Virus record (IMG/VR): IMGVR_UViG_3300033388_004030
Span: 1 to 37,874 of that record
Direction: 5' to 3' (one strand)
Source: a virus
Length of the DNA: 37,874 nt
In this document: in pieces, positions 4,233 through 24,585 of the stretch
How the letters are laid out: every line of letters begins with the position of its first letter
How positions within the stretch are numbered: the first letter of the stretch is position 1
The notes under the pieces: generated by a model
Databases searched by the model: none
What the model was told of the DNA's origin: nothing
What the model saw: only the letters and a program-made list of their open reading frames with translations
Program-made: the position numbers and the translations under genes

Positions 4233-4594
4233 GTAAATCCAAGAAACTTGGGCTGAACATGGATATCGTGCCGGTTGGCGAGATGTACGACATGTGTTGT
4301 TGGGTTGACGAATACGGCCCAATGCGATTCCAGTACAAAACCCGTGAGGAAGCGTTCCCCGCTCAAATGCGCCTCACCAGTATTTTCAGAAGCATACGGG
4401 ATAACACAGGAATACACCCTGAGTTTTCGGAGTTGTTGAATATCACGAAAACCTTCCAAGTAAAGGCGGTGAAGCCGGATCCCGGTAACAGCGCGTTGCC
4501 CTGGTATTTTGAAATCGTGGCTTTCGAGATGCACCCCGTTGACGAAAATATCCTGGACCAGGCGGCGGAGATCATGAATGCTGAACATCCATAA
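4229..4594 (+). CDS. Hypothetical protein, 121 aa
   Basis: Unrecognised soluble alpha/beta protein (MYDMCCWVDEYGPMRFQY, later LPWYFEIVAFEMHPV). It lies directly before the PD-(D/E)XK nuclease gene, overlapping it by 17 bases, and is coupled to the gene before it by ATGA. Its place suggests a partner in the recombination and replication cassette, but that is inference from context only. Confidence 0.55.
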   Translation: MSKSKKLGLNMDIVPVGEMYDMCCWVDEYGPMRFQYKTREEAFPAQMRLTSIFRSIRDNTGIHPEFSELLNITKTFQVKAVKPDPGNSALPWYFEIVAFEMHPVDENILDQAAEIMNAEHP

Positions 4595-5582
4595 ACCGCT
4601 TCTCGCCCTGGGACTTACCGTCGAGTTCCCCCACGTCCTCAACAACTCACTGCGCCAGACCTTTATCTCTTGTCCACGGAAATGCTTTTATGACAACATC
4701 CTGGGCCTGAAGTCCATCAAATCCTACGGCATAAGCATACATCTCAACTTCGGCGGGGCGGTGGCTGAGGGCATGGACATGATGCGCCAAACCTTTTACG
4801 GCCCGGGCGGAGGTGACGCCGACACTGCGCTGATCGCGGGGCTCCAAGCTGCCCTAAAAAAGTTCAACACAGAATTCTACGAGGAGACCCACGTCAAAAA
4901 CGTCGTCAGCCTCTGCGCCCTACTCATCGACAACACCGAACGCTGGCCCCTAGGTGAGGATTACCTAGTTCCGCTCATCGACGAAAACGGAAAGCCCTCA
5001 TCGGAGTTCAGTTTTTGCACTCCGCTCCACCCGGGGCTTATTCACCCAGGAACCGGCCAGCCGCTGCTCTATGCGGGGCGTCTGGATTGGTTGGCCCAGC
5101 ACGCAGGGGCCGTCATCCCCAAAGGCCACAAACCCATGCTCTCCCTGGTGGACGAGAAGACCTCGGGATCCCTGGGGGCCTCTTGGAGCAAACAATGGAC
5201 CATGGAATCCCAGTTCTCAAGTTACGCCTGGGTTTGCCGCAAAATGGGGATGAACGTGGGCAACGTAGTGATTAGGGGAATGGCCCCCTACAAAACCAAG
5301 CCCACTGGAACGGAGGAACTGACCCTTCGCCGCCCGGATTACCAAGTCCAGGAGTGGTATGACACATGGTGTATGGAGGTCCGCCAGATGCTGACCTATT
5401 TTGAAGCAGGGGTTTGGCCCAAGAACCTGGGCAAGGCTTGCAGTAGCTTCGGGAGTTGTCGGTTTATGGAACTTTGCACAGTGCAGGATCCTTCGGCGTG
5501 GATTGCTGCCGGGTATCGCCAAGTGTGGTGGGATCCAATTACAGGAACTGAGAAGAATAGCCCGGAAGGAGTTGGGAAATGA
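4578..5582 (+). CDS. Cas4/RecB-like PD-(D/E)XK exonuclease with Fe-S-type cysteines
   Basis: This 334-residue protein fits phage nucleases of the PDDEXK/Cas4-RecB type, which resect DNA ends for recombination. Visible motifs are C32 in SCPRKCFYD, FGGAVAEG at 58-65 (the usual His of this helix is replaced), catalytic-type D170 in AGRLDWLA, the D192-E193-K194 box in SLVDEKTSG, and Q212xxxY216. Three C-terminal cysteines, C288, C294 and C300, with C32 give the four-cysteine pattern of an iron-sulfur cluster as in Cas4 and AddB. It lies just upstream of a recombinase-type ATPase, as in many phage recombination modules. Confidence 0.85.
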   Translation: MLNIHKPLLALGLTVEFPHVLNNSLRQTFISCPRKCFYDNILGLKSIKSYGISIHLNFGGAVAEGMDMMRQTFYGPGGGDADTALIAGLQAALKKFNTEFYEETHVKNVVSLCALLIDNTERWPLGEDYLVPLIDENGKPSSEFSFCTPLHPGLIHPGTGQPLLYAGRLDWLAQHAGAVIPKGHKPMLSLVDEKTSGSLGASWSKQWTMESQFSSYAWVCRKMGMNVGNVVIRGMAPYKTKPTGTEELTLRRPDYQVQEWYDTWCMEVRQMLTYFEAGVWPKNLGKACSSFGSCRFMELCTVQDPSAWIAAGYRQVWWDPITGTEKNSPEGVGK

Positions 5583-5830
5583 AAGAGTATTCCCTGAAAG
5601 AATGTGGGTACCATAAATGGGACAGCATTAAATTGGTGGTATACCCCTATTCCGATCAAATTTCGATCGAAACCACCCGGAATAATGACTACTTCCAAGG
5701 CGAGATGTTGGAAGATTGGGAGATGTCCCGGGAAGAGGTGTTAACCCTTATCAAGCAGTTAAATATCGCACTGGATTACCTTGATAATTTCGATCCAGAA
5801 AAAGGCGACCCAGAGGAGATAAAAGGATGA
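5579..5830 (+). CDS. Small paralogous protein, copy 1, 83 aa
   Basis: Begins MKEYSLKECGYHKWDSIKL and aligns along its length with the next gene product: SLxxCGxHxWxxIxL at the start, SDxxxxExTR in the middle and EDWEMSREEVLTLIKQL against ESWKLTPTDVRVLIGQL near the end. This marks a tandem duplication. The protein is likely a small alpha/beta fold with a C-terminal helix. Function unknown. It overlaps the nuclease gene by four bases, so it is part of the same operon. Confidence 0.65.
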   Translation: MKEYSLKECGYHKWDSIKLVVYPYSDQISIETTRNNDYFQGEMLEDWEMSREEVLTLIKQLNIALDYLDNFDPEKGDPEEIKG

Positions 5831-6084
5831 GCGACTTCTCCTTATCCGGGTGTGGGGCGCATGAATGGGAGCAGATCGGCTTAACCACCTGTTACAAGAG
5901 CGACCTTGTCTTCCTTGAGGTGACTCGGCTTCATGATGTCCGGGGGTTCGTATCGGAATCTTGGAAGCTGACTCCTACTGATGTCCGAGTACTCATAGGC
6001 CAGTTAGAAGCGTCCATGGATCTACTTAAAAGACAACGCCAGGAATACGCGGATAACCAAGCAACAACTAAGTGGAGGTTTTAA
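5827..6084 (+). CDS. Small paralogous protein, copy 2, 85 aa
   Basis: Second member of the tandem pair (MSDFSLSGCGAHEWEQIGL). The conserved Cys-Gly-x-His at residues 8-11 is shared with copy 1 and may be functional. AAAAGG precedes the start and an ATGA overlap joins it to copy 1. It ends two bases before the ATPase gene. No function recognised. Confidence 0.65.
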   Translation: MSDFSLSGCGAHEWEQIGLTTCYKSDLVFLEVTRLHDVRGFVSESWKLTPTDVRVLIGQLEASMDLLKRQRQEYADNQATTKWRF

Positions 6085-6085
6085 C

Positions 6086-6928
6086 ATGGAATGTATCGTT
6101 CATCAAATCTACATCCCACCCGCTCTCGGGGAATTCACCACGTTCCAACTCCGTACCAAGGCTTTGGCTGATGACGTGGGCAAGAAATCCGAAGGTAAGT
6201 CTTTCGGTCCAGGCGTCAAACGAGCCTATGCCGCTATTGGGAAGCGATTCGGAGAAGCTTTCGACAACTTCACCTGCGAGCGTTGCGGCGAATCGTTCGG
6301 GGACGTGGCCACCTGGGGCACCGACCGGGTCCTTTTCATAGACTCCCTGTCCGGCATGAGCAAGATCATCATGAACTTGGTGGCCGGGGACATCGCCACT
6401 AAAACCCTCCCAAACTGGGCCAATGCCATGGAGCATCAAATGGTCCTCATCACCGAGATGGTCCAGGGTGCGAAGTGCCATTTCATCATGATCGGGCACC
6501 CGGACAAACTTGTTGATGCTGTCCATGGGGGGGTGCGGATCCAACCCTCCGCCCTGGGGAACAAGAACTCCCCGCAAATCCCAACCATGTTTCATGACGT
6601 GATCTGGGCACACATGAAGGGGAAAAAGTACCTCTGGTCCACCATCGACGCCCAAGCCGATCTCAAGCACCAGTTCTTGGAGTCCAGCAACGAGCTGCCC
6701 CCAGACTTCACGCCGCTATTCAAGGCATGGAAAGCCCGGAGCGAGTTCATGCCCCTGGATGGTGCGAAAATCCTGCTGTATGGTGATGCGGGCAAAGGCA
6801 AGACCCACGCACTGGGCACCCTCCCGAAGTCCTTTGAACCGGGCAAGATCTTCGCCATTTTCACCGAGTCGGGGCAGCCCACCCTGGCCAAGTCTCTCAG
6901 TTTGAATCTCGCTTCCCAACCCCGGTGA
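6086..6928 (+). CDS. Circularly permuted phage P-loop ATPase (Sak4/RecA-like recombinase type)
   Basis: The 280-residue protein contains the blocks of a widespread phage ATPase next to recombination genes, but in swapped order. Residues 8-12 (IYIPP), the CxxC knuckle C64-C67, a Walker B strand 82-86 (VLFID) and the sensor-like FIMIGHPDK (133-141) come first. The usual C-terminal end (FTPLFKAWKAR, 208-218) runs directly into FMPLDGAKILLYGDAGKGKT at 221-240, the normal N-terminus with its Walker A. In relatives, as I recall them, the Walker A block comes first and is followed by the IPP block. GGAGG precedes the ATG. Probable role is ATP-dependent strand annealing or exchange with the upstream nuclease. 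Whether the permuted fold is active is unknown. Confidence 0.8.
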   Translation: MECIVHQIYIPPALGEFTTFQLRTKALADDVGKKSEGKSFGPGVKRAYAAIGKRFGEAFDNFTCERCGESFGDVATWGTDRVLFIDSLSGMSKIIMNLVAGDIATKTLPNWANAMEHQMVLITEMVQGAKCHFIMIGHPDKLVDAVHGGVRIQPSALGNKNSPQIPTMFHDVIWAHMKGKKYLWSTIDAQADLKHQFLESSNELPPDFTPLFKAWKARSEFMPLDGAKILLYGDAGKGKTHALGTLPKSFEPGKIFAIFTESGQPTLAKSLSLNLASQPR

Positions 6929-8010: not shown

Positions 8011-8201
8011 CCCAACCCCACCCCAACGAAGTGGTGTCCGAGACTACTCAGAAGAAAGCGGATGTATACTGGGATCTCACCTGTAGAGAGGTAGTCCATA
8101 TGGATGAGTGCGAGAAATGCCTGGACGAATATAACTGGGCTTACTGTCCGTCACCCAATGCTAAGACAAAGACTGGTAGAACCAGGGGAGGTAAGGTCTA
8201 A
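8007..8201 (+). CDS. Single Cys4-module protein, 64 aa
   Basis: Contains one copy of the cysteine module found twice in the preceding protein: C26-x8-C35-x2-C38-x8-C47-P-S, in the context LTCREVVHMDECEKC. The C-terminus is basic (KTKTGRTRGGKV). It probably arose by duplication of the module from the gene before it. It starts with an ATGA overlap and its TAA overlaps the polymerase ATG, so it is coupled to polymerase translation. Confidence 0.65.
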   Translation: MTQPHPNEVVSETTQKKADVYWDLTCREVVHMDECEKCLDEYNWAYCPSPNAKTKTGRTRGGKV

Positions 8202-10624
8202 TGCCCCAAATAGCCCCCCACCAACTCACCCCACACACCCCCGGTCCAGTTCTCATCATCCACGACGCCCACGTCTCCACCACCGCGCTCAAGTTCAAAA
8301 GCGGCATAGAGTATTATCAACAAGAAATTCTAGCGGACCTGCTCCAACGGGCGGGCCTGATGCCGGGGGAGTCCGTCCAGCACACCCTATTCGCCGAAAC
8401 CATCGGTGGGCATAAATGGAAATGGGACGCAGACCGGACGCTGTTTCCGACTATGGCGGTAGCGCGGAAAGCCAACAAAGCAGACAAAACGACCAGCGAT
8501 GCTGCATTTGGGGTGGAGGGGCTTTACACGGAAAAATTTATTCAAGACAATAATGACTACTACAAGCCCCCCTGCCCCTGGCTCTCCGACCGCTATACTA
8601 CCCAAACCACCGCCGAGGCCATCACCACCCTAAACGCCGAGATCACCCGCCTCGCCCCAAGTTTCATCATCTGCATGGGCGGTGCCGCTTACTGGGCTCT
8701 CACCGGGAACACCCCCCTTGAGAACTGGCGCGGTACCGTCTCACACCCAGAGGGGATGCCTTGCCCGGTGATTGGCACGTTCCCGGTGAAGCGGTTGACC
8801 ACACAGCCGGAGTCCCGGTGGATTCTGCAAGCGGATTTGGACCGGGCGGTGCGGGTGATGCGGGATCCGAGCCGAATGCCAAGGGAGCCCCGTATCTATG
8901 AGGGAGATGTGGTACTGACTGAAGCTGATTTGGTGGAATTCGAGACCTATGTCAAAAATATGGTATGGATTGGTGCTAAGGTAAATGACTATAAAACCGG
9001 ACATATTGTGTCTTGCGACATCGAAACCAGAGCAGGGCATATCGATTGCATCGGAGCTGTAACAAACGTGGGTCTTGGTAGAGCCTTTCTCACCCCTTTC
9101 ATCAACCATGCCGGGGACACCATGGTCGCCCAACACTGCTTCCTCCCAGGCACTAAGAAAGGCTTGGGCTTCCTATCCTCCATCTACCGCCGGAACCACA
9201 TCTACTGGAAAGAGGAAATCTCCGGCGACGATATGACCCGCTGGAAATACTGTCTCAAGGACTGCATCAACACCTATGAGATCTGGACCGAACTCCGGCC
9301 CCAGCTCGACGTGGTCGGGGTCGCCGAATACTACGAATTCTCCATGCGGCTCTGGAGGGCTTCGCTTTGGGCCACCATCCGGGGCATTAAATTCGACAAG
9401 GTCGCTCTCAAAAAACTGAATACCAAACTCCGGGCCGACCTGGCGGAAGCCCTGCGCCGGATCGAATTCATTTGCGGCCACCCGCTCAACCCCAATTCCA
9501 CCGCCGCAACCGGGGATCTCCAGGTCTTCTTGATCAAGGACATGGGCCTGGAACTCTACAAGGCCCCGGGCACCACACGCCTGTCCACAGGCAAGGCCGC
9601 TATTGTCAAACTCAAGGGCCGATACCCCTGGATTTCTCCGCTCGTTGACCTCATTCTCCATGCCCGGGAAACCCGCACGGCTTTGACAAACTTTGCGACC
9701 CTGAACCTGGACTACGACGGGCGGATGCGGGCTTCCTACAACGTAGCCGGGACCAAAACCGGACGACTCGCTTGTTCCAGCACGGCTTTCGACAAGGGGC
9801 GAAACCTCCAGAACTGGCCCGGGAATTTACAACATGTGTTTGGGCCGGATGAGGGTATGACGGCGTTCGAGGTGGACTTGGCCGGAGCCGACATTCAGAT
9901 CGTAACCTGGAGGGCCGATGAACCGGTCAGGGTATCCCCCGCCGAATCGGGGCTCCCGGCCAGTGTCTTGCCCATGCTATCGGTCGCTCCCGACCTGGAC
10001 ACGCCCAATGAACTGAAGGCCCTTTTCCGGGCTGGCGGCGCGGTCCATATCCACAACGGCGTCACGCATTTCGGGTTCCCGGAGATGGCGGAGCAGGGGA
10101 AGAAGCATCCAGCATACAAACTGGTGAAAATGGGGGGCCATCTGATCAACTATGGAGGCAAGCCCACCACCCTGGCTAAGGCCCTGGGTATCACCGTCAA
10201 GGAGGCCAAAGTCTTCCAGGAGAAGTATTTCAAGGCGTATCCGCAGATCAAGGAATGGCACAAAACCACAAACAAGTTGCTCAAGGAAATCCGGCAGATC
10301 CGCTCTCCATTCGGGATGCGCTTTGTGTTCCTTGGCCGGGTCGATGGTAAGGCCCTCAACGATGCTCTGGCCTGGGAGCCCCAAAGCACCGTGGCCCGGA
10401 TCACCAACGAGGGCTGGCTCAACATGTTTGAAAAGCATCGGGGCTTGCTTGAAGTCCAGCTCCAAGTGCATGATTCGCTGAAGGGGCAATTCCCGACCGC
10501 CCGGAGAGACGAAGCCATGGCCGCTATTGCGGAGTGCATGAAGATTGTGGTGCCGTTCGCCGATCCGCTGGTGATTGGGACGGAATGTGCAACGTCGGAG
10601 AATAATTGGGGAGAATGTAAATGA
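8201..10624 (+). CDS. polA: Family A DNA polymerase with UDG-like N-terminus and damaged proofreading domain
   Basis: The 807-residue phage replicative polymerase has three parts. Residues 13-220 resemble the uracil-DNA-glycosylase superfamily (APSFIICMGGAAYWALTGN at 152-170, WRGTVSHP at 176-183). Residues 268-370 are a DnaQ-type 3'-5' exonuclease with Exo I D273-I-E275 and Exo III Y350-C-L-K-D354. Only about 75 residues separate them, against roughly 140-160 in E. coli Pol I and T7 gp5, and no Exo II N-x3-D motif is present. Residues 500-807 are the polymerase: motif A around D559 (FEVDLAGAD), motif B K643 to Y651, motif C H757-D758. The usual motif B arginine position seems to hold Tyr639. 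The start overlaps the previous stop (TAATG). Confidence 0.92.
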   Translation: MPQIAPHQLTPHTPGPVLIIHDAHVSTTALKFKSGIEYYQQEILADLLQRAGLMPGESVQHTLFAETIGGHKWKWDADRTLFPTMAVARKANKADKTTSDAAFGVEGLYTEKFIQDNNDYYKPPCPWLSDRYTTQTTAEAITTLNAEITRLAPSFIICMGGAAYWALTGNTPLENWRGTVSHPEGMPCPVIGTFPVKRLTTQPESRWILQADLDRAVRVMRDPSRMPREPRIYEGDVVLTEADLVEFETYVKNMVWIGAKVNDYKTGHIVSCDIETRAGHIDCIGAVTNVGLGRAFLTPFINHAGDTMVAQHCFLPGTKKGLGFLSSIYRRNHIYWKEEISGDDMTRWKYCLKDCINTYEIWTELRPQLDVVGVAEYYEFSMRLWRASLWATIRGIKFDKVALKKLNTKLRADLAEALRRIEFICGHPLNPNSTAATGDLQVFLIKDMGLELYKAPGTTRLSTGKAAIVKLKGRYPWISPLVDLILHARETRTALTNFATLNLDYDGRMRASYNVAGTKTGRLACSSTAFDKGRNLQNWPGNLQHVFGPDEGMTAFEVDLAGADIQIVTWRADEPVRVSPAESGLPASVLPMLSVAPDLDTPNELKALFRAGGAVHIHNGVTHFGFPEMAEQGKKHPAYKLVKMGGHLINYGGKPTTLAKALGITVKEAKVFQEKYFKAYPQIKEWHKTTNKLLKEIRQIRSPFGMRFVFLGRVDGKALNDALAWEPQSTVARITNEGWLNMFEKHRGLLEVQLQVHDSLKGQFPTARRDEAMAAIAECMKIVVPFADPLVIGTECATSENNWGECK
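10607..10624 (+). repeat. 18-bp direct repeat, copy 1
   Basis: TGGGGAGAATGTAAATGA occurs here and again at 11302-11319. It holds the ribosome binding site and start codon of the downstream gene. Here it encodes the end of the polymerase (GECK, stop); at the second site it is read in another frame. This suggests a duplicated translation-start region, not shared protein sequence. Confidence 0.8.
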
Positions 10625-11902: not shown

Positions 11903-12237
11903 TCATGACCCCCATCATGACCACCCTCATCCACCACTGCCCCCCCGACGAGGCCCAAGCTTGCGTCAATCGCCTTGGGGGCCTCCGCTACCTCATCCAC
12001 CCAACGACCCCAAGCCGCGCTCTCCGCTTTGGGGCTGGCCCGGTTGTGCTGGGCGTTCTGCTGGAGAGACACCCCGGGCAACTCATCTACTTCCCCCAAG
12101 CCAAGGCATTCCTAAAAGCCCAGCGTTACCAGAAAATTCTAGAATGGGCTGATGCCGGGATCAGTTTTTCTGTAATTGCAGAACGAATCGGATTTACTGA
12201 GACCAAGGTCCGCTGGATCTGGAGGGACCACAAGTGA
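11899..12237 (+). CDS. HTH protein, Mor-like, 112 aa
   Basis: The C-terminal 35 residues (YQKILEWADAGISFSVIAER, then IGFTETKVRWIWRDHK) have a clear helix-turn-helix pattern like Mor/C-type phage activators. The N-terminal part may be a dimerisation domain (RLGGLRYLIHP, VVLGVLLERHPG). The start is a GTG overlapping the previous stop (GTGA); an in-frame ATG follows at 11905. GAGAGGGG sits well for the GTG. It could regulate the late block, but no target site is visible. Confidence 0.55.
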   Translation: MIMTPIMTTLIHHCPPDEAQACVNRLGGLRYLIHPTTPSRALRFGAGPVVLGVLLERHPGQLIYFPQAKAFLKAQRYQKILEWADAGISFSVIAERIGFTETKVRWIWRDHK

Positions 12238-13676
12238 CCATGAAGCTCCCCCCACGCAGTAAAATGCGCCAAGAAGGGGAACCGCTGGACCCCCCCACCC
12301 AGGGGAGCCCGGTCCCTAAATCCAAAAAGACTGCGCCGAAGCCAAAAGCAGCTCCACGCCCGAAACCCAAGGCGAAATCCACCCACACCGAGCCCCATTT
12401 CCCGGACTGGCTTGAAGCCTATTGCGACATGAACGATTCCCTGGAGGCCCCGCGCTACATCCACCGCTGGGTGGGGCTGTTCACTTTCGCCGCTGCTCTG
12501 GAACGCCGGGTGTTCATTGACGAAGGGGTTTTCCACTGGACCCCGAACCTCTACGTCCTCCTCCTCGGACCCTCCGGGGTGAGCAAAAGCACCTCCATCA
12601 GCCCGGGCAAGCGCATCCTCCGGGACGTGGGAGTGCCCATGGGAGCCAGCGACACCACCTACGAGGCCCTGGTGGCCAACCTGGCCCGCAATAAGACCAG
12701 GCTGCCCTTACCGCACAACGACGAATACCAATACTCCGCCCTGGCTGCCTGTGTGTCCGAGATGGGCACCCTTTTCGGCAAGGACGAAGAACGCAAATAC
12801 AACACCTATATCGATTTCTGGGATTCCGAAGAAGGGCCTTGGGAGAAACACCGGATAAGTGGAAACGCCAATGTCCACACCCCAAGCCTGAGCCTGATCA
12901 CCGGCACCACTCCACCATGGCTTCGGGGAAACATGAGCCCTTCCATCCTGAACGGAGGGTTTTTCGCTCGATTTATCGTGGTCCACATGCACAGCCGGGA
13001 GAAGCACCGGGCATACCCATCGGATTTTTTGAGCTCTGAGGCCGGGGCCACGATGCACTCCAAATTGGTGGAGGATCTGACCCTGGTCCGGGAGCAGTTT
13101 GTGGGGAAGATGACCCTGACTGAAGACGCCAAGGCTTGGGGCCGCATCTGGTACGATCAATTGATTTTAGCAAGTAAGGTCCGGGGGGAGGTGGAACTGG
13201 TTGCGGGCTCCTTGAATCGCCGTCAGCAGATGGCACATAAACTGGCCATTACCCTGAACCTGGCCCGAGGTCGGGGCATGGTCATTACCAAGGAAACACT
13301 GATTGAAGCGTCTGACCTACTGAAAGCCGTGGAAAAAGACCTACCCACAGCACTGGGTGATGTTCTACACAACTCGACCCAGAACCAGGAAATCGTGGTC
13401 AAATACATCGCCAATGTCGATACGAACCAGGAGGGGAAAACTTCAGTTCTCCGGTCCAGGTTGGTGACTGTTTTGAGAAAAATTACTGACTTAGATGTCA
13501 CTCAAATAGGGAGTTTGCTGGACGAGATGCTGGCCAATGGTTTAATAAACACTGTATCGGACCCTAAAAAAGAATTCGTCCTCAGCCACCGATTGCGGTT
13601 TGTACTGGGACCTGAGACGAAACCCCAGGATAAACTGCATGATTTGAAATTTCAGAAAACGATGAGGGGACTATGA
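12234..13676 (+). CDS. DUF3987-like replication ATPase (primase/helicase type)
   Basis: The 480-residue protein starts at a GTG overlapping the previous stop (an ATG follows at 12240; GGAGGG favours the GTG). Residues 20-50 form a Lys/Pro-rich unfolded leader. RYIHRWVGLFTFAAALERRV at 74-93 and the Walker A variant GPSGVSKST at 112-120 fit phage DUF3987 helicases, whose P-loops have this SKS form. The Walker B-like strand is LAACVSEMGTLFG around E176. It probably unwinds DNA at the replication fork with the family A polymerase. No separate primase catalytic centre was recognised. Confidence 0.75.
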   Translation: MTMKLPPRSKMRQEGEPLDPPTQGSPVPKSKKTAPKPKAAPRPKPKAKSTHTEPHFPDWLEAYCDMNDSLEAPRYIHRWVGLFTFAAALERRVFIDEGVFHWTPNLYVLLLGPSGVSKSTSISPGKRILRDVGVPMGASDTTYEALVANLARNKTRLPLPHNDEYQYSALAACVSEMGTLFGKDEERKYNTYIDFWDSEEGPWEKHRISGNANVHTPSLSLITGTTPPWLRGNMSPSILNGGFFARFIVVHMHSREKHRAYPSDFLSSEAGATMHSKLVEDLTLVREQFVGKMTLTEDAKAWGRIWYDQLILASKVRGEVELVAGSLNRRQQMAHKLAITLNLARGRGMVITKETLIEASDLLKAVEKDLPTALGDVLHNSTQNQEIVVKYIANVDTNQEGKTSVLRSRLVTVLRKITDLDVTQIGSLLDEMLANGLINTVSDPKKEFVLSHRLRFVLGPETKPQDKLHDLKFQKTMRGL

Positions 13677-21150: not shown

Positions 21151-24100
21151 CTAGCTAAGAAGTTGCGAAAATGGGTCAACAATCCCTTTGACCGAGGGTC
21201 CGGCGGCTCCGGCACTGATACCCCCAGCAGCCCCTCCAGAAGAGAACAGCCCACCACCCAATCCGACCGTTGCTACAGACCCCGCCAAAGAAAGGGCCCC
21301 TCCAACGATTCCGGCTTTCTTGGCCGATGCGCCCTGGGCTTCCAGCAGATCCGCCTCAAACTCCGCCACGGTTGCGGCCAGCTCGCCCTCAAAACGGATC
21401 CCCTGGGCCTCTTTCTCTCCTTCCGTGGCCTGAGCCACCCCTACCTCGATGGGCGTCCCTGTGAGCTGCACACCGCCTGCAGCGAAGGCCGCTGTTTGCT
21501 GGGCCAGGAGACTTTCGGTTTCTCGGCGAGAAGCGTTTTCGTCTACGAGGGCAGCCCGGCGGGACTGGGCCGCTTCCAGAAGTTTGAGTTTGGCGTTTGC
21601 CTCAGCGGTTTTTTGGGTTTGGATGCCACCGAGGACCGAGGCTCCGACACCGGCGGCTCCGCTCATGAGAGTGGCAATGGCAATGGGTTCGAGTCCGCTC
21701 ATAAGGTTAACATTGTGTAGATAAGACTGCACCGCAGTGTCCCACCCACCCGACATAGCGATCTTGGGTGTGACGCTACGCAGGGGTACGGACTCTCCCA
21801 TGGGATCCCCGACCTCGCGAAAAGGGACAACGTTCAGATCGGCGGCGTCGGTCCCGACTTCCATAGCATCGGTATTGAGGACCTTGATGTACACGTTGGA
21901 GATCCGTTTTTGCCGCCCGACGGTGGAGCCGCTTCCGACCAGCAAATCCAGGGGAAGGGTTTCGATATTGGTGGTGTACGGAAGCCCCACCTGGGCCTTG
22001 TCCGCTGTTGGGCTGAGGGTGACCTGACCGCCTGAGACTACCTGATCGGGCTGAACCGCTCCGTCAGCGAGGATCGCGACTGTCTCCCCCTCAAGATGGT
22101 CCAACCCAGTAGCCACTGCTAAGTCGGTCCCGGTCACCGTCACCCCACTGTCCACGAAGAACGCATCCGCCAGGAGAGCCGCTTCATCCAAACCCGGCTC
22201 CAGAAGCTCCACATAACGAACCGTGGCACCGTCCACTGTACGGGCGACGATCAACCACAACTCGCTCCGGGTCGCTCCGGGGATTACGGCGACGCTTTCC
22301 ACCACAGTATCGGTCCCGCCCAGGGTCTGGGGAGCCCACCCAACTACTTCTTGGTCCCGGTCGTAGGCACAGGCCAGGAGCCGCCCATCGTTGTGTACAA
22401 CCCAGATTACGGGATCCGGTGTGAAGGAGTAGGCCGCTTCTTTGACCCCGCCAACGAAAAGGTGCCCAGCGAGTATGGAAATGTCGGGGGCTCGGTAGGT
22501 GTCTTGAGCGAAGACGAAGGCGAACTCCCGGATTTTCCGCCCGAGCCTTTCGATGAATACAACTTGGGAGTCGATGTTAAGTGGGCGGGCGAGCGCGGCC
22601 CCATTTCGCGTTGACGGCGTGATGCGGATGTTTGCGGGAGTAATCCCCTGGTCCAGGTCTGAGGCGGTGATGTTATAAGGGCCACCAGAAGTACCAGCGA
22701 CAAGGATCTTTCCAGCAGCAAGCCATTGGATCGCGTTGACTTGGTCGCTGTCGATGGTGTAATTGAGCGCACTGTCAGCCAGAGAACCTGGTTCATGGTT
22801 GAGAAAATCCCCCGTGGTTGAGCCCCAGATGGTCTGAGGCTGTGCTGTGGTGCTGGCAACCCAGAGACGTTGCTCAAAGAATGTGCCAGTGGAGGGGTAG
22901 CCCCGGACTTCGGACAAGGCCCCCTCTCGCCAGTACTTGGTTCCGCCGTCTCGGACACTGGCCGGAACACGCTTCTTGACATCCACGGTGACCTGGGTGG
23001 CGGAGATGAAGGCGGTGATCACCACGTAGCCGTGACCGTCGTGGATCCAGAGCCAGTCCACCCCATCAGCACCAGTTTGGCCGTCATCGAAAACCCCTTC
23101 CAGTTGGTTGGGGGAGTTTGTGCCGGTGGTGTCTGAGTTCAGGGCCTCGTAGACTTCCCCGTCGTTCTGGTAGAGGTCGCCCTGGGCCACATCGATGCCG
23201 CTTTGCCACTGGGGCGCGGTTGCTACGTCCTTGGCTTCCCGGAGCATCCAAAGCGCACCTACATGATCCGCGTTGAATAGGTCGGCTGTGGCCTCCATGG
23301 TTATGCCAGTTCCGGTGACGCTGCTGAGGGTGATGATGGTGTTGGAGTCCCCGGCCAGGAGCTGGCTGTCTGTGATGCTGTCCCCACCTGCCGTGACGAA
23401 ACCGTTGGCACTCCCGCTGTTATGGGCCGTAGAGCTGTTCCACTCGGTGGTGCCGAAATTCATGAAAACCGCAGGTTGGGTTCCTGTGGGGAGGCTACCA
23501 TCTGCACCAAGGTCTACGGGCTCCACGTCGGCTGTGAGGAATTTGAGGCGATTGGCTTCTACAGAGAAATCGGTGTAGGTGGGGTCGAACCAGAAATCCG
23601 CGAGATGCCCGTCCAGAAAGAGAGTCCCGGTGGTGCTGGCCCCGATACTGCCGTCTGCCCCAGAGTATTCCACATCGTCATCGGTGTAGACCAGGACGGT
23701 TAGGGCGGATTCCCCATTGACATACAGATGTCGGTTATCGGTGTCCGCCAGATCCCAGGAGGCGAGAATGTGAAGCCACCCGGTACCGGCTCGGGCGATT
23801 CCCGTGGGAGTGGCGAACCCTAGAATTTGGGACCCAGCGGCGTTAAGCCCAACGATACCAATGGCTCCTGTGGTCTCCCGGCGGACGTAGAAGGAGTTGG
23901 CCGTTCCAGCGGCATCTCGTAAATTATAAACTACACCAGCGGCCCCGGTGTCCTGCCCCATTTTGAGCCAAAAAGAAACCGAACCCAGCTTCCCATCGGC
24001 CATGCCAGTCACCCCGCCTAGGGTATTGTACGAGTCAGCACCGTTGAATTGCACCACGGGGGGCTGATACACGGGCGAGGGGTCCGTGGTGAGGTCCATA

Positions 24101-24585
24101 TAGGGGCCGTCAATGAGATCCAGGGGCTCGATGGACCACACGGCTTCATCGGCTTCGCGGACAACTTTCTGGGGTGGGTGGTTTCGGTGGAACAGGTATA
24201 GGGTGTCGGCACTTTGGGTGTATTGGACGTCATCCAGTTGTCCCACTGCATAGGGAACGGTGCCAGTAACTTCTACTGGGGATCCACTAGAGAGCAACGG
24301 GGCCTGGTTCTTGTAAATGCGGATGTAGCCGACGCCCAGCTCCAGGACGTAGGTCTGGGTGATGCTGAACTCGAAGGAGATCAGACGGGAACGAGCGGCG
24401 GTGGTTTTGGTTTCGGCGATGAACCGAGTACCCCCGCGCCTGGAGACGGAGCCCTGGACCTCGGGAATCGCGTTGGAACACTGGGCCAAAGCTCCCCGGA
24501 GACGCTCGATGTCGATTCGGGAGTAGAGCCTAGGATCGACCTCCCCGGCGTTCATGTTGTTCTGCATGGGGTAGACGATGGTCAT
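21151..24585 (-). CDS. Fusion of gp12-like tail tube protein (with LamG-like insert) and gp14-like internal protein
   Basis: Residues 1-170 match T7 gp12-type tail nozzle protein (GSVSRRGGTRFIAETK at 45-60, FEFSITQTYVLELG at 71-84, QSADTLYLFHRNHPP at 124-138). Residues about 175-395 are a LamG/concanavalin-like insert (GSVSFWLKMGQ, HILASWDLADTDNRHLYVNG). The gp12 fold resumes and reaches its usual end near GGWDT (946-950). The frame then continues without a stop through SYLHNVNL into M962-SGLEPIAIATLMSGAAGVG, a coiled-coil protein resembling gp14 (183 residues; T7 gp14 has 196). The start overlaps the gp11-like stop (ATGA). A polyprotein-like fusion of nozzle and ejection protein is unusual. 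Confidence 0.8.
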   Translation of the reverse strand: MTIVYPMQNNMNAGEVDPRLYSRIDIERLRGALAQCSNAIPEVQGSVSRRGGTRFIAETKTTAARSRLISFEFSITQTYVLELGVGYIRIYKNQAPLLSSGSPVEVTGTVPYAVGQLDDVQYTQSADTLYLFHRNHPPQKVVREADEAVWSIEPLDLIDGPYMDLTTDPSPVYQPPVVQFNGADSYNTLGGVTGMADGKLGSVSFWLKMGQDTGAAGVVYNLRDAAGTANSFYVRRETTGAIGIVGLNAAGSQILGFATPTGIARAGTGWLHILASWDLADTDNRHLYVNGESALTVLVYTDDDVEYSGADGSIGASTTGTLFLDGHLADFWFDPTYTDFSVEANRLKFLTADVEPVDLGADGSLPTGTQPAVFMNFGTTEWNSSTAHNSGSANGFVTAGGDSITDSQLLAGDSNTIITLSSVTGTGITMEATADLFNADHVGALWMLREAKDVATAPQWQSGIDVAQGDLYQNDGEVYEALNSDTTGTNSPNQLEGVFDDGQTGADGVDWLWIHDGHGYVVITAFISATQVTVDVKKRVPASVRDGGTKYWREGALSEVRGYPSTGTFFEQRLWVASTTAQPQTIWGSTTGDFLNHEPGSLADSALNYTIDSDQVNAIQWLAAGKILVAGTSGGPYNITASDLDQGITPANIRITPSTRNGAALARPLNIDSQVVFIERLGRKIREFAFVFAQDTYRAPDISILAGHLFVGGVKEAAYSFTPDPVIWVVHNDGRLLACAYDRDQEVVGWAPQTLGGTDTVVESVAVIPGATRSELWLIVARTVDGATVRYVELLEPGLDEAALLADAFFVDSGVTVTGTDLAVATGLDHLEGETVAILADGAVQPDQVVSGGQVTLSPTADKAQVGLPYTTNIETLPLDLLVGSGSTVGRQKRISNVYIKVLNTDAMEVGTDAADLNVVPFREVGDPMGESVPLRSVTPKIAMSGGWDTAVQSYLHNVNLMSGLEPIAIATLMSGAAGVGASVLGGIQTQKTAEANAKLKLLEAAQSRRAALVDENASRRETESLLAQQTAAFAAGGVQLTGTPIEVGVAQATEGEKEAQGIRFEGELAATVAEFEADLLEAQGASAKKAGIVGGALSLAGSVATVGLGGGLFSSGGAAGGISAGAAGPSVKGIVDPFSQLLS

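Follow-up and report, generated by a model that had tools for sequence, protein, structure and literature searches.

Family A DNA polymerases that have lost proofreading are already known from phages and bacteria (PMC11348598, PMC12926913, PMC9069017). In Caudoviricetes, the phage family A polymerase divPolA1 is judged to have lost its 3'-5' exonuclease (PMC11348598). About half of bacterial PolA1, as well as PolA2/APEX, carry an inactive 3'-5' domain whose active site was lost by substitutions; PolA2/APEX is defined by an Actinobacterial origin and a clamp-binding QxxLF motif in the vestigial exonuclease domain (PMC12926913). In some viral PolAs, too, no exonuclease activity could be detected in vitro (PMC9069017). 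In this study, we describe a phage family A polymerase from which one block of the exonuclease domain appears to be missing, and a neighbouring Sak4-like gene whose two halves appear to have exchanged places.

Materials and methods

The window is the whole stretch of DNA that was analysed, one virus record 37,874 bases long, and all positions refer to it. The predicted polymerase was aligned with its relatives, and the polymerase tree was built by a quick method. The AlphaFold model of the polymerase covers residues 225-807. An earlier sequence-only reading of the window had pointed to the exonuclease region, and its claims are taken up with the results that bear on them.

Results

A structural module of podovirus-like type (terminase, head-tail connector, major head protein, tail and internal virion proteins) lies on the minus strand of the window, and the plus strand carries a replication module (nuclease, Sak4-like ATPase, polymerase and primase-like protein; Table 1). 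The replication neighbourhood is shared with Microcystis phage Mel-JY34 and phage ctMlz233, but with other genes interspersed, and the order of the other conserved genes of the window is colinear with that of relatives. Single-protein searches of viral and genome contigs returned no close relative, and no near DNA match to the window was present among the phages searched. The best relative of the polymerase reaches ~33% over the whole protein and 42% in the polymerase domain. Elsewhere in the window, the tail tubular-type protein of 1144 aa encoded at 21154-24585 has ~250 extra residues near 170-420, and its C-terminal part is similar to phrog_418, an internal virion protein; it looks like a fusion of two virion genes. 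At 5579-6084, two adjacent small ORFs (83 and 85 aa) resemble each other like copies that have since diverged.

Table 1. Features of the replication module and of the polymerase gene, in window positions.
Feature	Position	Strand	Remark
PD-(D/E)XK nuclease	4578-5582	+	replication module
Sak4-like ATPase	6086-6928	+	match to Sak4 profile
Sak4-like ATPase, C-terminal block	6086-6748	+	one frame with the following block
Sak4-like ATPase, N-terminal Walker A block	6749-6925	+	follows the C-terminal block
Family A DNA polymerase, 807 aa	8201..10624	+	Pfam DNA_pol_A 1.5e-26; phrog_17 1.9e-66
Low-GC3 patch, codons 231-296	8891..9088	+	GC3 0.41, against 0.72 and 0.75 on the flanks
Exo I motif D273-I-E275	9017..9025	+	kept; D and E in 83/83 relatives
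Joint F300-I-N-H-A-G-D306	9098..9118	+	relatives have ~50 more residues here, including Exo II (GQNxxYD)
Exo III motif Y350-x3-D354	9248..9262	+	kept; invariant in 83 relatives
Polymerase motif A aspartate D559	9875..9877	+	kept (alignment with relatives)
Extra ~25 residues (576-603) after motif A	9926..10009	+	no counterpart in the relatives compared
Polymerase motif C aspartate D758 (QVHDS)	10472..10474	+	kept (alignment with relatives)
DUF3987 primase-like protein	12234-13676	+	replication module

In the polymerase ORF, the N-terminal region is degenerate, the 3'-5' exonuclease domain is shortened, and the polymerase domain is complete. The conserved palm, fingers and O helix residues of family A are present (D559, D758, K643 and Y651). 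The main parts of the gene, like the Sak4-like neighbour, show a coding signal, with codon positions in the order GC3 > GC1 > GC2. The N-terminal region (8201-8870) is strongly diverged; it is glycosylase-like in relatives, whose VGEAPG... motif is replaced by HDAHVS in the window. A family A polymerase of another form occurs in Vibrio phage vB_VspS_VS-ABTNL-3 (L004:2674-5808), where it is divided between two ORFs that a third one separates.

In the exonuclease domain, Exo I and Exo III lie 75 residues apart at the residues named in the sequence-only reading, and the corresponding stretch measures 86 residues; in each of the 83 full-length relatives aligned, its length is 132-154. Each of these relatives carries the Exo II N-x3-D, which in this alignment is missing from the window alone. 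The abrupt jump that had been noticed before DTM coincides with the main gap, which the alignment places between TPFI (301) and DTM (306-308); relative L008 has ~50 residues where the window has NHAG. A gap of this size near residue 300 is what that reading had expected from an alignment with phage PolA homologues, and the frame, as it had also claimed, stays open throughout the ORF. A further 5-8 residues are absent from the loop preceding Exo III. Of the three sequence motifs of a DEDDy 3'-5' exonuclease, Exo I and Exo III are thus present and Exo II, with its metal-binding aspartate, is absent. The statement that no N-x3-D is left was wrong in the letter, as a literal N302-HAG-D306 exists at the joint, but right in substance: D306 aligns with the aspartate of the DTM helix and not with that of Exo II.

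No relative with the same spacing was found either among the 83 full-length proteins or in a second scan that used the exonuclease region itself as query, which should favour relatives sharing the gap, and which returned 80 loci, partly overlapping with the first set, none of them gapped. From match coordinates, locus L171 had appeared to be a second gapped relative; it was rejected, as its full Exo II is present. Nor was the Exo II segment found elsewhere when a profile of the missing piece was run against all six frames of the window. Chance divergence was rejected as the cause of the gap, since the alignment is confident on either side and one block makes up the change. A hairpin at the joint was no better than in shuffles. 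The search for RNA families and tRNAs found none, hence no intron signal was seen; an intron would not explain the missing sequence.

The AlphaFold model has an overall pLDDT of 84. At the joint (P0001 292-303) pLDDT falls below 50, with confident flanks. The model matches the Klenow structure with Z 33.7 over 503 residues (rmsd 3.9), and also matches the Taq and Bst structures. Going by the model, the polymerase has kept its fold, and part of the exonuclease site is missing.

Across the exonuclease domain, the family profile can be aligned with E. coli Klenow, and GQNxxYD then falls opposite Klenow VGQNLKYD. The aspartate of this motif, which we take to be Klenow D424 by residue numbering, lies in the lost block; D424 is a position commonly chosen to inactivate the domain. 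The single change D424A is enough to remove the 3'-5' exonuclease of E. coli Pol I (PMC3686724; PMC7952088). The loss of proofreading proposed by the sequence-only reading is thereby well supported, by analogy with Klenow: the window polymerase probably copies DNA and cannot correct its own mistakes. Proofreading could also be supplied in trans by a separate protein, either from the host or encoded in the window and not recognised there.

It might be argued that cutting persists in the shortened domain, with a different acid or a rearranged site in the role of the Exo II aspartate. The remnant, including the acids of Exo I and Exo III, is no less strongly conserved than the polymerase domain, and D306 is one of several acidic residues close to the joint. 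However, the residue aligned with D306 is invariant in the DTM helix of all relatives and so has another role, the joint is modelled with low confidence, and the single-residue loss in E. coli Pol I cited above is enough to abolish activity. We consider continued cutting improbable.

The four remaining catalytic residues (D273, E275, Y350 and D354) are unchanged, and the ratio of conservation between exonuclease remnant and polymerase domain is 1.18 in the window, against 1.11 +/- 0.07 in the family. A long-dead domain should have decayed; hence a loss, if it took place, looks recent. Strict conservation of these four residues would be unexpected had proofreading been lost long ago, and it counts against the reading as a loss. 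From this conservation, the loss may be recent, the remnant may still be structural, or the gap may be an artefact. A low-GC3 patch ends just left of the joint, with a log-likelihood gain of 14.5 that was reached in 0 of 60 shuffles (maximum 11.6). It is possibly a recombination tract; other causes are possible too. GC3 is similarly low in the first 60 codons of the Sak4-like ORF (6086-6265), at ~0.53 against ~0.78 in the rest.

In the Sak4-like ORF, the usual order of Walker A before Walker B is reversed: both blocks are present in a single ORF, Walker B comes first, and profile positions run 124-289 and then 19-64. The reversed order was seen in none of 69 relatives, several of which are truncated by contig or locus ends. 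Once restored to the usual order, the blocks can be aligned along the entire length of 43 relatives, and the seam between them is small. A model for which relatives were supplied block by block reaches pLDDT 83 and pTM 0.83. Against the PDB the model has no significant sequential Foldseek match, and VIA-align returns weak RAD51-paralogue rows only (Z 5-6 over ~130 residues); such an outcome is compatible with a changed block order and proves nothing. Circular permutation usually proceeds through a tandem duplication whose outer halves are then lost. Judged from the order of its blocks, the ORF looks like a natural circular permutation. No permuted Sak4 was found in the literature searched, whose coverage was partial, and this weighs little. 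The apparently permuted Sak4-like recombinase may be a more surprising feature than the polymerase gap.

The two rearrangements together bear on whether the gap belongs to the virus at all. The virus may have an ordinary proofreading polymerase, the gap having arisen in sequencing, amplification or assembly, for instance in a chimera or collapsed contig that joined two distant points and kept the frame by chance. An error of this kind would fit a gap that is unique among relatives, remnant catalytic residues that are unchanged as if the domain were still used, and a Sak4 order likewise unseen in the 69 relatives, which places two odd joints within 3 kb; the window is moreover a single virus record, with no close relative to confirm the joint. 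Yet both the gap and the Sak4 block swap preserve open frames with normal codon statistics. The swap requires three joints, yet the ORF has its own good ribosome-binding site and start. The remaining conserved genes are colinear with relatives, and the divergent, long-branch replication genes point to a genuinely unusual lineage. We regard an artefact as unlikely and a real in-frame loss as the probable origin of the gap.

The window polymerase is nested among its relatives (10-row set, SH-aLRT 98). Across the trees, which hold different taxa and in which the lengths of very long branches are unsure, its branch is 2.5 against 0.2-0.3 in most of the nearest relatives, about ten times longer; the primase branch is also very long, that of the larger Sak4 block is 2.59 (median 0.26), and that of the terminase is ordinary at 0.64 (median 0.45). 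The high mutation rate that the sequence-only reading had thought possible found no support in these lengths. A mutator should speed up all genes and the terminase is not accelerated, although this argues only weakly against a genome-wide mutator, as the terminase tree holds other taxa. On these sequence comparisons, the long branches would suggest that constraint has changed within the replication module, not that a mutator acts on the whole genome.

An ordinary terminase branch beside long ones for polymerase, primase and Sak4, together with the two rearrangements that keep the frame and the extra residues in the palm, would also suit a replication module that is decaying as a whole or no longer serves as replicase, for example in a phage using host enzymes; the gap would then be a sign of decay. 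Against this, ~800, 280 and 480 codons run without stop or frameshift, all polymerase motifs and most conserved positions are kept, and the codon statistics are those of a working gene. Decay of the module is thus highly improbable.

Discussion

We lean towards an in-frame loss of ~50 exonuclease residues that has yielded a replicase without proofreading. In the mechanism that we propose, the replication module of a podovirus-like phage would encode a Klenow-type family A replicase from which these residues have been lost in frame; in the sequence, Exo II with its surrounding strand and helices is absent, and Exo I, Exo III and all polymerase motifs are present. In the absence of the Exo II aspartate, the second metal site could not form, and a mispaired 3' end entering the exonuclease cleft would not be cut. 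The enzyme would act as a polymerase without proofreading and keep the exonuclease remnant as a structural module. The conserved remnant and the compositional patch adjoining the joint suggest that the loss is recent and came about by recombination or deletion. More tentatively, the module as a whole may have been remodelled by in-frame recombination, the proofreading core having been excised as a block and the Sak4-like protein being a working circular permutant of the RecA family. If so, the polymerase gap and the permuted Sak4 together would make a low-fidelity, recombination-prone replication system.

If real, the window polymerase would be a natural counterpart of the laboratory exonuclease-minus Klenow, reached by block removal instead of point changes. 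It would allow one to ask how a virus copes with a non-proofreading replicase, and whether the leftover exonuclease domain matters for folding or DNA binding. Natural exonuclease-free polymerases are also of practical use. The permuted Sak4 neighbour would add one of the rare cases in which a RecA-type ATPase has undergone circular permutation in nature.

By every feature tested, the predicted protein is a family A polymerase that does not pass as a working DEDDy exonuclease. It resembles the Klenow fragment of E. coli DNA polymerase I (family A, DEDDy) in overall fold, Exo I, Exo III and polymerase motifs; it differs from Klenow in being without the ~50 residues that include Exo II (D424) and the surrounding elements, and in its ~25 extra residues after motif A. 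It belongs by sequence to the PolA clade of Microcystis phage Mel-JY34, ctMlz233 and IMG/VR relatives (L002, L003, L008-L087), with which it also shares the neighbourhood of PD-(D/E)XK nuclease, Sak4-like ATPase, polymerase and DUF3987 primase, whereas every full-length relative retains the full exonuclease domain. The neighbouring ORF matches a profile of the Sak4 single-strand annealing proteins (PMC5928155) and, once its halves are reordered, aligns with relatives along their full length, but its own block order is reversed. Distinct from divPolA1, in which other residues stand in place of the three catalytic aspartates of the exonuclease and the thumb is also truncated (PMC11348598), the window polymerase retains D273 and D354 among its Exo I and Exo III acids and misses one block. 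With the bacterial Pol I enzymes whose 3'-5' domain is inactive, it would share a non-working exonuclease domain kept as structure; activity was lost there by substitutions (PMC12926913), whereas in the window a block is removed and the other catalytic residues are intact. What appears to be new, as far as sequence can tell, is the manner of the loss, in which a discrete Exo II block is gone and Exo I and Exo III are untouched.
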